Shown one piece after another: positions 169-8,442 of a stretch of DNA of 11,626 nt; positions within the stretch are counted from its first letter, which is position 1, and each line of letters begins with the position of its first letter. The notes beneath the pieces were generated by a model. That model was given only the letters and a program-made list of their open reading frames with translations, was not told the DNA's origin and did no database searches. Position numbers and translations under genes: made by a program. This DNA is from Pseudomonadota bacterium (GTDB lineage: Bacteria; Pseudomonadota; Gammaproteobacteria; Burkholderiales; Burkholderiaceae_C). The DNA lies in the NCBI GenBank assembly GCA_018241985.1, contig JAFECV010000025.1, positions 1 through 11,626 of the forward strand, written 5' to 3'.

Positions 169-1080
169 ATGACGAGGCCGCGACGGCGCCGCGACCGACG
201 ACAGCCGCGCAACCGCATCGAGGCCGCCTTGATCGACGCGCTCGCTACCGGCCTGCTGAACGGCCTGGTCTACGCGCTGATCGCGGTCGGCCTGGCGCTG
301 ATCTGGGGCATCACCGACGTCATCAACTTCGCGCACGGCGACTTCCTGATGCTCGGCATGTACGCGGCCTACTGGCTGTTCACGCTCGGGCACCTGGACC
401 CGACGCTGTCGGCGCCGCTGGTCGCGTGCCTGCTGGGGTTCGTCGGCTTCCTGACCTTCGCGCTCGTGATCCGGCCGCTGCAGCGCGGGCCGGCGATGAT
501 CGTCATCCTCGCGACCTTCGGGCTCGGGCTGGTGCTGCGCCAGCTCGCGTTCATCGCGTTCTCGCCGGACTACCGCAACCTGCCGGCGACCTGGCTCTCG
601 GGCAGCGTCAGCTTAGGCAACGTGCACCTGGGCCGGCCGCAGCTCGGCACCGGCATCGTGTCGCTGGTCGTGATCGTGCTGCTGTTCCTGCTCGTGTACC
701 GCACGCGCTGGGGGCATGCGCTGCAGGCGGTGGCCGAAGACCGGCAGGCGGCTTCGCTGGTCGGCATCGCGTCGGACCGCGTCAACGCGCAGGTCTGGAT
801 CCTCGGCAGCGCCGCGGTGGGCCTGGCCGGCGCGCTGCTGACGACCTTCTTCTACGTGTTCCCTTCCGTCGGCAGCGTGTTCGGGCTGCTGGCGTTCGTC
901 GCGGTCGCGATGGGCGGGTTCGGCTCGCTGCCGGGCGCGTTCCTTTCGGGCATCCTGATCGGCGTCATCGAGGCGATGACCGGCTATCTGGTGCTGCCGG
1001 CGTACAAGATGGTCAGCATCTTCCTGATCTTCCTGCTCGTGCTCTGGTACCGGCCGCGCGGCCTGTTCGGGCGCTGGTGA
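169..1080 (+). CDS. livH: branched-chain amino acid-type ABC transporter permease, LivH family
   Basis: Inner-membrane permease of a Liv/HAAT importer, pairing with LivM to form the channel. After a short N-terminus the protein reads LLNGLVYALIAVGLALIWGI and then INFAHGDFLMLGMYAAY, the usual LivH opening helices and 'NFAHG' loop. The cytoplasmic loop VAEDRQAASLVGI, which contacts the ATPases, is present, and the protein ends in the typical YRPRGLFG tail. Its 303 residues are slightly longer than usual. The start is uncertain. ATG 169 gives an odd arginine-rich leader (RPRRRRDRRQPRNR) and has only a poorly spaced G-run before it. TTG 229 is preceded by GAGG five bases upstream, removes that leader and gives 283 residues, closer to the family norm. 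I keep 169 as the longest supported form but consider 229 at least as likely. First permease of an operon running to livF. Confidence 0.93.
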   Translation: MTRPRRRRDRRQPRNRIEAALIDALATGLLNGLVYALIAVGLALIWGITDVINFAHGDFLMLGMYAAYWLFTLGHLDPTLSAPLVACLLGFVGFLTFALVIRPLQRGPAMIVILATFGLGLVLRQLAFIAFSPDYRNLPATWLSGSVSLGNVHLGRPQLGTGIVSLVVIVLLFLLVYRTRWGHALQAVAEDRQAASLVGIASDRVNAQVWILGSAAVGLAGALLTTFFYVFPSVGSVFGLLAFVAVAMGGFGSLPGAFLSGILIGVIEAMTGYLVLPAYKMVSIFLIFLLVLWYRPRGLFGRW

Positions 1081-1081
1081 G

Positions 1082-2125
1082 ATGGACCGCCCAGGCTCCG
1101 CTCCCGAGCAGCGGCCGGACGGCGCGGCGCACGCGTCCGCCACCGTGGCGGCGGACATGCCTGCTGACGTGAACGCGCCGGCCCGGCGCCGGGCCATCGC
1201 CTGGCTGCTCGTCGCGATCGCGGCGCTGATCGTCTTTCCATTCTTCGTGCCCGACCCGTTCTCGCAGCAGGTCGTGGTGATGATGCTGATGTACGGCGCG
1301 CTCGGCGCCGCGTGGAACCTGGTCGGCGGCTTCCTCGGCCGGGTCTCGTTCGGGCACGCGGTGTTCCTCGGCATCGGCGCCTACACCACCTTGCTGCTGC
1401 TGCAGTCGCTGCACCTGAGCCCGTGGATCGGGATTCCGCTCGGCGGCGTGGCGGCGGCGGCGGTGGCGTTCGTCGTCGGCCGGCCGACGCTGCGGCTGAC
1501 CGGCCACTACTTCGCGATGGCGACGATCGCGCTGCTGTCGGTCGCGCAGCTGCTGGTGGTCAACTGGGACTGGGCCGGCGGCGCGACCGGCGTCGAAGCG
1601 CCGATCGCGAACAACCCGTGGCTGCTGCTGTTCCGCAGCAAGGCGCCGTACTACTGGATCGCGTTCGCGCTGGCGCTGCTCACGCTGTGGGCCACCGTGG
1701 CGCTGGTGCGCTCGCGCACCGGCTACTACTGGCGCGCGATCAACGGCGACGAAGCGGCCGCGCGCAGCCTGGGCGTGCCGGTCGAGCGCTACAAGATGCG
1801 CGCGTTCGTGCTGTCGGCCGCGCTGACCGGCGTCTGGGGCGGCTTCTATGCGATCTACATCGGCTTCATCGACCCGGACTCCGCGTTCAACCTCACGCTG
1901 TCGATCCAGATCGTGCTGGTCGCGATCCTCGGCGGCATCGGCAGCCTGGCCGGCCCGTGGCTGGGCGCGGCGGTGCTGATTCCGCTCGGCGAGGGGATGC
2001 GCGTCGCGCTGGGCAGTTCGGGCAGCGGGTACGACCTGCTGATCTACGGGCTGGCGATCATCCTGGTGAGCCTGTTCCTGCCGAAGGGCCTGATCACGTT
2101 GAGGCTGCGCCGTGGCTCTGCTTGA
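1082..2125 (+). CDS. livM: branched-chain amino acid-type ABC transporter permease, LivM family
   Basis: Second membrane permease of the importer, one base after the livH stop. It has the LivM hallmarks: WNLVGGFLGRVSFGHAVFLG around residues 79-98, the loop RAINGDEAAARSLGVPVERYK that docks on the ATPase, the segment AILGGIGSLAGPWLGA, and a C-terminal LFLPKGLITL. Multiple hydrophobic segments run from about residue 37 to the end. The first 35 residues are hydrophilic and of low complexity, so the true start may be ATG 1157 (MPADVNAPARRR), which lies just before the first membrane helix. The 3' end overlaps livG by 14 bases, suggesting translational coupling. The family assignment is firm; the transported compound is unknown. 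Confidence 0.94.
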   Translation: MDRPGSAPEQRPDGAAHASATVAADMPADVNAPARRRAIAWLLVAIAALIVFPFFVPDPFSQQVVVMMLMYGALGAAWNLVGGFLGRVSFGHAVFLGIGAYTTLLLLQSLHLSPWIGIPLGGVAAAAVAFVVGRPTLRLTGHYFAMATIALLSVAQLLVVNWDWAGGATGVEAPIANNPWLLLFRSKAPYYWIAFALALLTLWATVALVRSRTGYYWRAINGDEAAARSLGVPVERYKMRAFVLSAALTGVWGGFYAIYIGFIDPDSAFNLTLSIQIVLVAILGGIGSLAGPWLGAAVLIPLGEGMRVALGSSGSGYDLLIYGLAIILVSLFLPKGLITLRLRRGSA

Positions 2126-2834
2126 AGTCGAGAAGCTGACGAAGCGCTTCGGCGGCCTGGTCGCGAACCGCGACATCAGCCTCGCGGTCGAGGCCGGCGA
2201 GATCGTCGCGATCATCGGGCCGAACGGCGCCGGCAAGAGCACGCTGTTCAACGGCCTCGCCGGGCATCACGCACCTAGTTCAGGCCACGTGCGCTTCGAC
2301 GGCAACGAGCTCATCGGGCGCACGCCCGAAGCGATTGCCGCGATGGGGCTGGTGCGCACCTACCAGATACCGCGCAGCTTCGCGGCGATGACCGTGCTCG
2401 AGAACGTGATGGTCGGCGCGCTGCTGCGCCACCCCGCGCTGGACGCGGCGCGCGACGTCGCATCGCGCGTGCTGGGCGAGGTGGGCCTCGGCGAGCGCGG
2501 CCAGACGCCGGCGGGCGAACTGAACGTCGCCGGGCAGAAGCGCATCGAGCTGGCCCGCGCGCTCGCGACCGCGCCGAAGATGCTGCTGCTCGACGAAGTG
2601 GCGGGCGGCCTGAACCCGAGCGAGGCGCGGGCGCTGGCCGAGATCTTGCGCAAGGTGCACGCCGGCGGCGTCACGCTGCTGATCGTCGAACATGTGCTGG
2701 AGGTCGTGATGCGGCTCGCGCAGCGCGTGCTGGTGCTCGACTTCGGGCAGTTGATCGCGGCCGGCACGCCGGAGGAAGTGGTGCGCAACCCGGCCGTGAT
2801 CGAGGCCTACCTCGGAAAGAAATACCGTGCCTGA
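2112..2834 (+). CDS. livG: branched-chain amino acid-type ABC transporter ATP-binding protein, LivG family
   Basis: Cytoplasmic ATPase subunit of the importer. Walker A is GPNGAGKST at residues 36-44, the Q-loop glutamine is in TYQIP near residue 85, Walker B is MLLLDE at 157-162, and the switch histidine is in IVEH at 194. The C-terminus has the LivG-type ending AYLGKKY. The ABC signature is not LSGGQ but LNVAGQKR (137-144). From memory a subgroup of LivG proteins carries similar LTLAGRKR-type signatures, so this is probably a subfamily trait rather than damage. GTG 2112 is chosen because GAGG lies seven bases upstream, inside livM, and the protein then begins MALLEVEKLTKRFGG as expected. 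It overlaps livM by 14 bases and livF by 8. Confidence 0.95.
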   Translation: MALLEVEKLTKRFGGLVANRDISLAVEAGEIVAIIGPNGAGKSTLFNGLAGHHAPSSGHVRFDGNELIGRTPEAIAAMGLVRTYQIPRSFAAMTVLENVMVGALLRHPALDAARDVASRVLGEVGLGERGQTPAGELNVAGQKRIELARALATAPKMLLLDEVAGGLNPSEARALAEILRKVHAGGVTLLIVEHVLEVVMRLAQRVLVLDFGQLIAAGTPEEVVRNPAVIEAYLGKKYRA

Positions 2835-3555
2835 CGATGGCGGCGGCGTGCTGCTGAGCGTCGAAGACCTGCACGTGGCCTACGGCGGCGTGCAGGCGGT
2901 GCGCGGCATCTCGCTCGAGGTGCGGCATGGGGAAATCGCGGCGCTGCTCGGCGCGAACGGCGCCGGCAAGTCGAGCACGCTGCTGGCCATCGTCGGCGCG
3001 GTGCGGCCGCGCTCCGGGCGCGTGCGCTTCGACGGCCAGGACATCACCGGGCTCGCGCCCGACGTGCTGGTGCGGCGCGGCATCGCGCTGATTCCCGAAG
3101 GCGGCCGGGTGTTCGCGCGGCAGCCGGTCGAGCAGAACCTGCGCCTGGGCGCCTACACCGTGGCCGAGGGCGCGGTGCAACGCGAGCGGCTCGAGCAGGT
3201 GTACGGCCTGTTTCCGCGGCTGGCCGAGCGGCGCAGCCAGATCGCCGGCACGCTCTCGGGCGGCGAGCGCCAGATGCTCGCGATCGGGCGTGCGCTGATG
3301 AGCGGCCCGCGGCTGCTGCTGGTCGACGAGCCCAGCCTCGGCCTCTCGCCGCTGCTGGTGGACACGGTGTTCGAGGCGCTCGCCAGCCTGAACCGCGCCG
3401 GCACGGCGATCCTGCTGGTCGAGCAGAACATGGCGCAGGCGCTCGAAGTCGCGAGCCGCGCCTACGTGATGCAGAGCGGCGCGATCGCGCTGCAGGGCGC
3501 GGCCTCCGACATCCAGGCGTCGGACCAGGTCCGGCAGGCGTACCTGGGGCTGTAG
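2827..3555 (+). CDS. livF: branched-chain amino acid-type ABC transporter ATP-binding protein, LivF family
   Basis: Second ATPase of the importer. Walker A is GANGAGKSS at 42-50, the signature is a canonical LSGGERQ at 143-149, and Walker B is LLLVDEP at 163-169. IPEGGRVF near residue 89 is the LivF version of the Q-loop region, and LLVEQN at 197 carries glutamine where most ABC proteins have the switch histidine, which is normal for LivF. It starts at GTG 2827, eight bases inside livG. It is the last gene of the plus-strand operon; the TAG stop is followed after 15 bases by the end of a minus-strand gene, and no clear intrinsic terminator fits in that gap. Confidence 0.95.
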   Translation: MPDDGGGVLLSVEDLHVAYGGVQAVRGISLEVRHGEIAALLGANGAGKSSTLLAIVGAVRPRSGRVRFDGQDITGLAPDVLVRRGIALIPEGGRVFARQPVEQNLRLGAYTVAEGAVQRERLEQVYGLFPRLAERRSQIAGTLSGGERQMLAIGRALMSGPRLLLVDEPSLGLSPLLVDTVFEALASLNRAGTAILLVEQNMAQALEVASRAYVMQSGAIALQGAASDIQASDQVRQAYLGL

Positions 3556-6537: not shown

Positions 6538-8442
6538 TCAGTTTGCAAACCACTGCGCCGGCATCCGCACCGGCAGCGCGAGCAGGATCTGCGCCATGCC
6601 CTTGCCCAGCGGGTCGTTGCGCAGCGAGGCCATGCCGCCGCCGCCCAGCGCCTGCTCGCAGACGAAGTTGAACGCGTGAATGCCGGGCACCTCGAAGCGC
6701 GTCACCGGCCCCTTGACCAGGTGGCCCAGATGCTCCGCCACGCGCGCCTCGGTCAGTTGCGCGCGCAACAGCGGCAGCCATTCGGGCCGGCGCGCGATGA
6801 CGCCGATGTTGGAGGTGTCGCCCTTGTCGCCGGAGCGCGCCCAGGCGACGCGGATCAGCGGGACTTCAACCGTGTTCGTGGCGTTTGCTATCGAATCGAT
6901 AGCTGATAGTGAACGATCGACGCTGGCGGCAGCCTGTTTTTGTTCATGAATTGCGGGTTGTGATGCAGGCGGCACGCCCTCACCCCTGCCCTCTCCCGCA
7001 CCCGGAGGCGAAGCCTTCGGCTTCGCGGGCGGGAGAGGGAGTGGGACCGGCGCGCCATCCAGCGTCACGGCGGGCGTCACGCGCTCTTTGCCCAGCAGGA
7101 AGGCGTACTGCCGGATCAGCGGCGACACCGAGGCGCGCCCGCCCGCGCCGGTGGTGCCGGGCGCGAACGAAGTGCCGGCCGGTGCGACCTCGCGCGCCAG
7201 CAGTTCGAGCGCGGCCTTGTCCGGATGCCGCGCACTCAATCGCAGGATGGCCTCGCGCGTGCCCTGTACCGCCGGGTCGGCCAGCGGGCCGTAGCACGAC
7301 TCGGCCCCCAGCACTTCGATCAGCGTGGCGCTGAACGGCGCCAGGCCTTGCGCGACGAGCAACTCGCCCACGCGCTCGAGGATCGCCTCGCCGGTGCGCT
7401 GCGCCTTCGCCGCGGCCTCGAAGCCGACGATGGTCAGTTGCGCCGAGGTCTTGAAGCCGTCCAGATAGGTCGCGCTGACCTTGTACGAACCGGTCGGCGC
7501 ACGGCCGCGCGCGCCCTGCACACGCACGCGCTCGGGGCCGCTCTGCTGCATGCTGATTTGAGTGAAGTCGCACACCACGTCGGGCAGCAGATAGGCCGCC
7601 GGGTCGTGGATCTCGTAGAGCATCTGCTCGGCTACCACCTGCGGCGCGATGAGCCCCCCGGTGCCCGCGGGCTTGGTGACGGTGAAGCTCCCGTCCATTT
7701 CGCATTCGACGATCGGATAGCCGATGTGCGCCCAGTCGGGCACCTCGCGCCAGTCGGTGTGCAGCCCGCCCGTACCCTGGCAGCCGCATTCGATGATGTG
7801 GCCGGCCAGGCTGCCGCCCGCCAGTTTGTCGAGGTCGCCCGCCTGCCAGCCGAATTCGTGCATCAGCACGCCCAAGGTCACGGCCGAATCGACGCAGCGG
7901 CCGGTGACGACGATCTGCGCGCCGGCATCGAGCGCGGCCCGGATCGGCGCCGCGCCGAGGTACGCATTCGCGGTCACCACCTTCGCCGGCAGCGGCGCGC
8001 CGCTCTGCAGTTCGGTGATCGGGGGTTGAGCCTGACGCAACTCGGGCAGCAGCGGCATCACGTCGTCGCCGCTGACGACGGCGATCTTCACCTGCACGCC
8101 CAGTTCGCGGGCCAATGCGCGCAGCGCGTCGGCGCAGCCCTCTGGGTTGACGCCGCCGGCATTGCTGACGACGCGGATGCCCTTCGCGACCACGTCCTTC
8201 AGCACGCTCTTCATCGCAACCGTGACGAAATCGGTGGCGTAGCCGAGCTCGGGCTTCTTCATGCGCGCGGCGGCCAGGATCGACATCGTCAGTTCGGCCA
8301 GGTAGTCGAACACCAGGTAGTCGATCTGGCCGCCTTGCACGAGCTGCGGCGCGCCGACGCTGGAGTCGCCCCAGAAGCCCGAGGCGCCGCCGATGCGGAC
8401 TACTTTCGGGACCACTTTCGGCACCGCTTGCTCGTCGCTCAT
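6538..8442 (-). CDS. AtuA-family (DUF1446) protein with C-terminal AtuA-like domain
   Basis: A 634-residue cytoplasmic protein. Residues from about 14 to 460 form the DUF1446/AtuA domain, opening with RIGGASGFWGDSSVGAPQLV and including VVSNAGGVNPEGC, TGRCVDSAVTLG and GSYKVSATYLDGF. Residues from about 527 to 634 form the separate C-terminal domain (ARSGDKGDTSNIGVIARRPE and the ending with FNFVCEQALGGGG), which in other species occurs fused or as its own protein. AtuA is needed for growth on acyclic terpenes in Pseudomonas, but to my knowledge its reaction is not established. The two domains are joined by a linker (about 465-527) encoded by two palindromic repeat elements. ATG 8442 overlaps the hydratase stop (ATGA), with GGAG six bases upstream. 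Near the N-terminus VPKVVPKVV reflects a short tandem duplication. The frame is intact throughout, so this is not a pseudogene. Confidence 0.93.
   Translation of the reverse strand: MSDEQAVPKVVPKVVRIGGASGFWGDSSVGAPQLVQGGQIDYLVFDYLAELTMSILAAARMKKPELGYATDFVTVAMKSVLKDVVAKGIRVVSNAGGVNPEGCADALRALARELGVQVKIAVVSGDDVMPLLPELRQAQPPITELQSGAPLPAKVVTANAYLGAAPIRAALDAGAQIVVTGRCVDSAVTLGVLMHEFGWQAGDLDKLAGGSLAGHIIECGCQGTGGLHTDWREVPDWAHIGYPIVECEMDGSFTVTKPAGTGGLIAPQVVAEQMLYEIHDPAAYLLPDVVCDFTQISMQQSGPERVRVQGARGRAPTGSYKVSATYLDGFKTSAQLTIVGFEAAAKAQRTGEAILERVGELLVAQGLAPFSATLIEVLGAESCYGPLADPAVQGTREAILRLSARHPDKAALELLAREVAPAGTSFAPGTTGAGGRASVSPLIRQYAFLLGKERVTPAVTLDGAPVPLPLPPAKPKASPPGAGEGRGEGVPPASQPAIHEQKQAAASVDRSLSAIDSIANATNTVEVPLIRVAWARSGDKGDTSNIGVIARRPEWLPLLRAQLTEARVAEHLGHLVKGPVTRFEVPGIHAFNFVCEQALGGGGMASLRNDPLGKGMAQILLALPVRMPAQWFAN
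6884..6943 (+). repeat. dispersed palindromic repeat inside the AtuA-family gene (copy 1)
   Basis: The element contains a perfect inverted repeat, GCTATCGA-A-TCGATAGC (6887-6903), followed by GCTGATAGTGAACGATCGAC, CGCTGGCGGCAGCC and a T-run at 6937-6941. This layout (GCTAT..ATAGCTG.TAG, then CGCT.G.GGC, then T-run) resembles, from memory, a repeat scattered in intergenic DNA of Comamonadaceae. Read on the minus strand it encodes residues about 500-520 of the AtuA-family protein (EQKQAAASVDRSLSAIDSIA), part of the inter-domain linker. Confidence 0.65.
6983..7045. repeat. REP-like nested palindrome inside the AtuA-family gene
   Basis: The outer arms CCCTCTCCCGC (6989-6999) and GCGGGAGAGGG (7029-7039) are perfect 11-base inverted repeats, with further partial pairing out to CCC 6983-6985 and GGG 7043-7045. 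Between them is a second perfect stem, GCGAAGCC (7008-7015) with GGCTTCGC (7019-7026), and a three-base loop. Such CCCTCTCCC..GGGAGAGGG palindromes are common intergenic repeats in high-GC proteobacteria. Here the element is read in frame on the minus strand as a proline/glycine-rich linker with KPKASPPGAGEGRGEG, residues about 466-489. Confidence 0.8.

Follow-up and report, generated by a model that had tools for sequence, protein, structure and literature searches.

The AtuA-family gene and its inter-domain linker

The window, the whole stretch of 11,626 nt that was analysed, carries on its minus strand an ORF for an AtuA-family protein of 634 aa (6538–8442). Pfam assigns two domains to the protein, the AtuA domain (PF07287; residues 15–460, positions 7063–8400, minus strand) and the AtuA ferredoxin-like domain (AtuA_ferredoxin, PF23544; residues 527–625, positions 6568–6864, minus strand). 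PF07287 we take to be the former DUF1446. By these boundaries, the 66-residue gap between the domains contains two repeat elements, a derivative of the repeat called TM and an element that we call B. No relatives of the protein were found in the PDB at E ≤ 0.01, and no Rfam matches were found in the window at the gathering threshold. Elsewhere in the window, four genes (169–3555) resemble, by eye, a branched-chain amino-acid type ABC transporter, and adjoin a catabolic-looking cluster of acyl-CoA ligase, enoyl-CoA hydratase, GST-like and biotin carboxylase genes. The NCBIfam matches listed are all under their cut-offs.

The first element is a nested palindrome. Its outer arms, CCCTCTCCCGC (6989–6999) and GCGGGAGAGGG (7029–7039), are partners of 11 bases and are perfect, both as read from the sequence and in a hairpin search. 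The inner arms, GCGAAGCC (7008–7015) and GGCTTCGC (7019–7026), are perfect over 8 bases, and the whole palindrome is also scored as imperfect arms of 25–27 nt. The ORF is uninterrupted across it, and the encoded residues (about 468–489, LPLPPAKPKASPPGAGEGRGEG; 6977–7041, minus strand) fall between the two domains. In these respects the sequence-only reading, which had described a nested palindrome read in frame as an inter-domain spacer, was accurate. Judging from domain boundaries and composition, the linker is probably flexible.

Hairpins with 11-bp arms are not above chance in this GC-rich window (two, compared with a shuffle mean of 1.1 and a maximum of 6). The nested element as a whole folds with −62.2 kcal/mol (z = −4.85), and none of 200 shuffles is equally stable. 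The palindrome therefore exceeds chance by its fold stability, and the decisive point is that it is a known interspersed repeat with three more exact matches in its own genome.

The sequence-only reading had mentioned neither the segment CCCTCACCCC (6977–6986; GGGGTGAGGG on the coding strand), which corresponds to the third strand of a triplex motif, nor the second repeat-like element in the same linker. The latter, B, is unrelated to TM and occupies the rest of the linker (residues about 498–520, including HEQKQAAASVDRSLSAIDSIAN; 6883–6950, minus strand). It is a diverged copy, recognised by sequence matches in its own genome, where C156 is a clear relative (82% over 45 nt, E = 3e-6) and C302 a weak one (72%, E = 0.01). 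A strict B consensus is matched in six of the 22 genomes searched, the own genome giving none. A B match at G000:C332 (L012) was rejected, since by eye it is a methyltransferase motif and no repeat.

Identity and genomic distribution of the palindrome

A literature search with the arm sequences led to the repeat TM, or TMECO, which Holder et al. (2015; PMC4666352) describe, in the accessible part of the paper, as a G/C-rich intrastrand-triplex repeat, for example CCCTCTCCCTGTGGGAGAGGGCCGGGGTGAGGGC. The window copy has both arms of TM, CCCTCTCCC and GGGAGAGGG, in exact form, and the third strand, GGGTGAGGG, 2–3 nt past the second arm, so that positions 6977–6997 match the TM pattern exactly. 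As described for TM there, the element is interspersed and multi-copy, and at times occurs in inverted pairs. It differs from the copies retrieved in the ITxF search of that paper, which allowed loops of 1–6 nt, in having an enlarged loop of 33 nt (6998–7030) that holds the nested 8-bp hairpin (7008–7026). TM loops in the other loci that we fetched are mostly 3, 5 or 6 nt, and the copy at the AtuA-linker site of locus L056 has 6 nt. Because of the 33-nt loop with its nested hairpin, we call the window copy a TM derivative and not a canonical triplex former. By sequence, the element is such a derivative, and triplex formation itself is predicted from the motif. A search for the origin of the nested loop returned own-genome matches (L004, L005, L007 and L008) that resemble, by eye, ordinary sequence.

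The palindrome had been called REP-like. REP superfamilies are defined, according to the accessible text of PMC3733652, by GTAG or CGTC ends and often lie near RAYT transposases. The window element ends in GCCCTCACCCC... and ...GGGAGAGGGAG, neither of which is GTAG or CGTC, and this label is therefore replaced by that of a TM-type triplex repeat. The idea behind the label, that a mainly intergenic type of repeat had been inserted in frame and serves as an inter-domain spacer, is supported. In the accessible parts of the sources, TM is always intergenic in E. coli MG1655 (PMC4666352), and the same hairpin occurs in 100 copies in Enterobacter sp. 638, often at the 3′ ends of genes (PMC2869309). 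The window copy, unlike both, lies in frame within a gene.

The exact TM pattern matches four times in the own genome, 100 times in G062 (the host of locus L056) and 23 times in Comamonas badia (C. badia) DSM 17552 (G067); a reversed-pattern control gave no match in any genome searched. The four own-genome copies comprise the AtuA linker, one in threonine synthase (C246) and two in a seemingly intergenic stretch of C161. For a census, we fetched exact copies and asked, by a coding score, whether an ORF runs through each of them and whether its codon usage on either side of the copy is like that of genes. The codon model was built from genes of the window together with AtuA homologues, and we set the cut-off at 0.08. 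Full censuses cover the own genome, G062 and C. badia; an earlier scoring covered 59 TM loci. By this score, 32 of 100 copies in G062, 15 of 23 in C. badia and two of four in the own genome are in frame. Reversed sequences gave no in-frame call in 425 (0/340 for G062 and 0/85 for C. badia), and random nearby positions were called coding in 217 of 340 cases in G062 and 46 of 85 in C. badia. Compared with random positions, TM is thus under-represented in coding sequence in G062 but not in C. badia.

The 32 called copies of G062 lie in 22 ORFs. The number is conservative, because these ORFs contain 39 exact copies, seven of which were uncalled. Pfam domains are found in 21 of the 22 ORFs (none in L291), and in 18 of the carriers the printed domains flank or span the called TM. 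The exceptions are L173 and L271, with domains on one side only, and L287, where a second stretch is counted, its place not being printed. The carriers include, by Pfam names, UvrD, two UvrA-like ORFs, MutS, Tex, an HrpA-like helicase, HsdM, MmeI, PurL, ThiD/ThiE, a bifunctional penicillin-binding protein, a lipoyl-Pyr_redox protein, YjeF/NNR and AtuA. In C. badia, where the Pfam scan covered carriers other than the AtuA copies (L319), printed domains lie on both sides of TM in UvrA, MmeI, a CT_C_D/CT_A_B fusion, ThrC, a UvrD_C/PDDEXK protein and an HrpA-like helicase, on one side in three methylase ORFs, and not at all in L314. The domain-free ORFs L314 and L291 may be spurious. On plasmids, mostly enterobacterial, 39 of the 40 TM matches listed (116 records in all) lie over no annotated feature and one lies in a hypothetical protein, as counted from an incomplete gene table.

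TM is open in five of its six reading frames, and the peptides are rich in Pro, Gly, Ser and Glu. The number of open frames is barely above that of same-composition shuffles (means of 4.9 for the canonical copy and 4.5 for the window copy); therefore, translatability is largely an effect of composition. The six frames are used 24, 10, 9, 4, 2 and 0 times by 49 in-frame copies, which are not independent, as sites are shared between genomes and partly inherited; the last frame has a stop. The frame PLPLGEGRGEG accounts for 24 of the 49 copies and the other open sense frame for two (chi-square p = 4e-6). This uneven use suggests some selection on the peptide. In a small test with five genes, fourfold sites in the TM core agree in 36 of 40 pairwise comparisons, compared with 71% over the genes, which is suggestive of a DNA- or RNA-level constraint on the core. 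No target-site duplication was identified at TM insertions.

Linkers of relatives and shared insertion sites

A protein search scored 8,000 candidates, of which the best 120, the window protein included, were listed. TM-type peptides, recognised by a regular expression, are present in the linkers of 36 of the best 119 homologues. Among the matches listed, the 21 closest (P0002–P0022, 83–89% identical) all contain a TM peptide, and the nearest, P0002 (89%), reads LPLPLGEGRGEG and does not have the loop extension of the window at the peptide level. At similar identity, again among the matches listed, the linkers of P0025 (81%) and P0030 (80%) are TM-free. In the DNA sequence, L056, L059, L061 and L112 have an intact TM (with one change in the third strand of L059), and an additional inverted TM lies upstream in L059, L061 and L112. 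L058 has a decayed TM, and so, judging by eye, does L066. In the same genus, G101 has two inverted TMs in the AtuA linker (L226), and L227–L230 (72–73%) have none. The linker alignment was restricted to homologues of 400 bits or more and contains 74 rows beside the window; 72 linkers, that of the window included, were long enough. On a tree built from the domains only, the TM label changes ten times, and at least seven of the changes are forced by well-supported branches.

The sequence-only reading held that a linker shared at the protein level with other genera would speak against an inserted repeat. The linker is indeed common to other genera, but an insertion is not thereby refuted, since an ancestral insertion would be inherited and TM is multi-copy in the hosts searched. 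The host-genome searches found TM to be multi-copy in the own genome and in the hosts of L056, L059, L061 and L112. From these comparisons of sequence, the AtuA-linker insertion is an old one, presumably an ancestral event that was then inherited.

Some AtuA linkers carry other repeats. Repeat C (TTCGACAGGCTCAGNNCGAACGG) is found in the linkers of L025 and L031, whose hosts have 24 and 3 copies, respectively, those of the linkers counted. Repeat D (TTGGGGTCNGANCCCAA) is found in the linker of L029, with 26 sites in the host, two of them within the linker. D-like motifs were seen by eye in L027, L028 and L084, where the D pattern matches the hosts 0, 3 and 0 times, never in the linker. In a Duganella linker (L091), there is another palindrome-like stretch, GTGTCACACC...GGTGTGACAC. 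In C. badia, the two inverted TMs of the AtuA linker (L061:2863–2983) could form a single hairpin of −87.6 kcal/mol within the ORF. In-frame sites number two of 13 for B (one of them being an AtuA linker), one of 13 for C and six of 8 for D, in fetched loci and at sites at least 350 nt from a locus end. The DNA polymerase III alpha gene of G009 likewise contains an in-frame D. A B-like motif, loosely defined, lies 30–147 nt downstream of 17 of 170 distinct TM contexts in fetched loci (L138, L140, L322 and AtuA linkers), a count that includes the AtuA copies and possible chance matches.

Other proteins have such sites as well. In ThrC, TM sits between conserved segments, at a place where the loop is short in 24 of the 29 relatives aligned. 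The own genome has TM there, C. badia has TM at the same place by sequence, G102 carries a pair of inverted TMs, and the insert of G101 is a different one (the loci are L170, G000:C246, in the own genome and L240, L248 and L320 in the other three); L241, L242 and L268 have longer, unclassified loops. The G101 insert is repeat E, which is multi-copy, unrelated to TM, and matched 19, at least 44, at least 40, at least 42, 31 and 18 times in the same-genus genomes G101–G106, respectively (at most 40 candidates being scored in G102–G104), and five times in the own genome. In a UvrA paralogue (loci L281, L193, L196 and L220), one loop follows TGRYLL and a second precedes EHNLKN. Both contain TM in G062 and D in G035, and the first contains B plus TM in G097. 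G062 and C. badia share a TM pair in an HrpA-like helicase. Such shared landing sites have a precedent, because recB of two Xanthomonas species carries different REPs at nearly the same position, as the accessible text of PMC3733652 has it.

Interpretation and known in-frame repeats

Building on the open frame, the repeat identity, the copies elsewhere, the insert-free homologues and the recurrence at shared sites, our preferred explanation, in which we have considerable confidence, is that an old TM copy inserted in frame where the linker was permissive and was then passed on by descent, probably as a tolerated insertion. TM, as a self-spreading palindrome, would have inserted in frame in the AtuA linker of an ancestor. 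In a loop or linker, an in-frame copy would add a short spacer and leave the protein intact, because TM is open in five of six frames and its peptides are rich in Pro, Gly, Ser and Glu. In-frame loop copies would then persist, much like Rickettsia palindromic elements and intragenic REPs, and out-of-frame or core insertions would be lost. In this group (Burkholderiales, with Comamonas and Ottowia records), such insertion is frequent, and in some loops the repeat family differs from genome to genome. We infer that the peptide is made and is flexible, that TM moves in this manner and that its insertion is neutral rather than beneficial; a benefit of TM insertions is possible.

The palindrome had been regarded as domesticated. 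On a domestication reading, its peptide or its mRNA hairpin would aid the folding or movement of the two AtuA-family domains, for instance because the ribosome slows down between them. This fits the position of the element exactly between the domains, its highly stable hairpin in the window and that of the C. badia pair, the TM peptide in the 21 closest among the homologues listed, and the preference for one reading frame. However, P0025 and P0030 do without TM at similar identity, TM has decayed in L058 and apparently in L066, the same linker is served by several frames and by unrelated repeats, and P0002, the nearest copy among those listed, is free of the nested loop at the peptide level. 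Several frames are in use, and copies in genes show neither more decay nor more adaptation than the rest, which tolerance explains at least as well. We consider domestication improbable. A role at the DNA level, in which the triplex-forming repeat is kept as DNA and drives local variation, as Holder et al. propose, its read-through being incidental, is unlikely too, though less so. The second arm, which played no part in selecting the copies, is perfect in G062 in 31 of 32 copies that are in frame and in 66 of the 68 that are not, and in C. badia in 15 of 15 and seven of 8, respectively; because it is alike in both classes, coding copies appear no more decayed. The conserved fourfold sites of the core point the same way, as does the instability of TM loci in E. 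coli (accessible text of PMC4666352). However, because one half had to match exactly, the selection of copies is biased towards those that are young or homogenised, the window loop has 33 nt instead of the 1–6 nt of the triplex search, and in-vivo footprinting, as far as the accessible text of that paper goes, does not back the formation of a stable triplex.

Two further readings were weighed against tolerated insertion. A native low-complexity Pro/Gly linker could be palindromic by chance, as arms of 11 bp by themselves are expected by chance in so GC-rich a window, but exact TM matches occur elsewhere in the genome, with none for the control, and the same pattern of 20–22 nt occurs in 22 different G062 ORFs. 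The repeat counts contradict a chance palindrome, to which we attach practically no credence. An assembly artefact might be suspected in an own genome of 820 contigs that is about 90% complete; it is contradicted by TM-plus-B linkers in independent records, together with the C. badia DSM 17552 record, and is exceedingly improbable.

Beyond tolerated insertion at one locus, we offer a broader proposal tentatively, as possible rather than probable. Small palindromic repeats of this group may be a common pool of in-frame loop modules. Certain permissive loops of core enzymes (the AtuA linker, ThrC, the UvrA paralogue, HrpA, PurL, MutS and HsdM) would be recurrent landing pads for repeats TM, B, C, D or E, and the preferred frame PLPLGEGRGEG would be under selection. 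They would then be a standing source of protein-loop variation, perhaps most of all in DNA repair and restriction-modification genes.

The findings place an abundant, biophysically characterised repeat, reported as strictly intergenic in E. coli, in frame in conserved enzymes of another, cultivable lineage, where the in-frame share of exact copies reaches about two thirds (15 of 23 in C. badia). In these tractable hosts one can ask if the insertions are neutral or beneficial, and how the ribosome copes with GC-rich hairpins of such length. For annotation, Pro/Gly-rich "linkers" in this group can be repeats.

The first protein-coding palindromes were described in Rickettsia, and some REP families followed. 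The phenomenon of in-frame palindromes is already known (RPE, REPs and RU), and TM in coding sequence is apparently undescribed, as no prior description was found in the open-licence literature. As with other protein-coding palindromes, TM is in frame in many unrelated conserved proteins, and there are homologues, as seen for ThrC, that do not have it. The comparisons that follow use the accessible parts of the cited papers. Rickettsia palindromic elements, of about 105–150 bp, lie in frame in conserved proteins (Ogata et al. 2000, 2002, as reviewed in PMC2229807 and PMC10969869), as TM does by translation predicted from open frames. They differ in length and host, the window element having about 65 nt, plain TM about 35 nt, and both belonging to another lineage. 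Intragenic GTAG/CGTC REPs are palindromes of 20–40 bp and their dimers within ORFs that include uvrA, UvrD/REP helicase, recB and DnaE, the same kinds of gene as the TM carriers; TM does not have their ends (PMC3733652). The ERIC/RU fusions of enterobacteria are, like TM, small open-frame repeats fused into genes, but those are elements of 103–168 bp in another lineage (Delihas 2007, PMC2759123).
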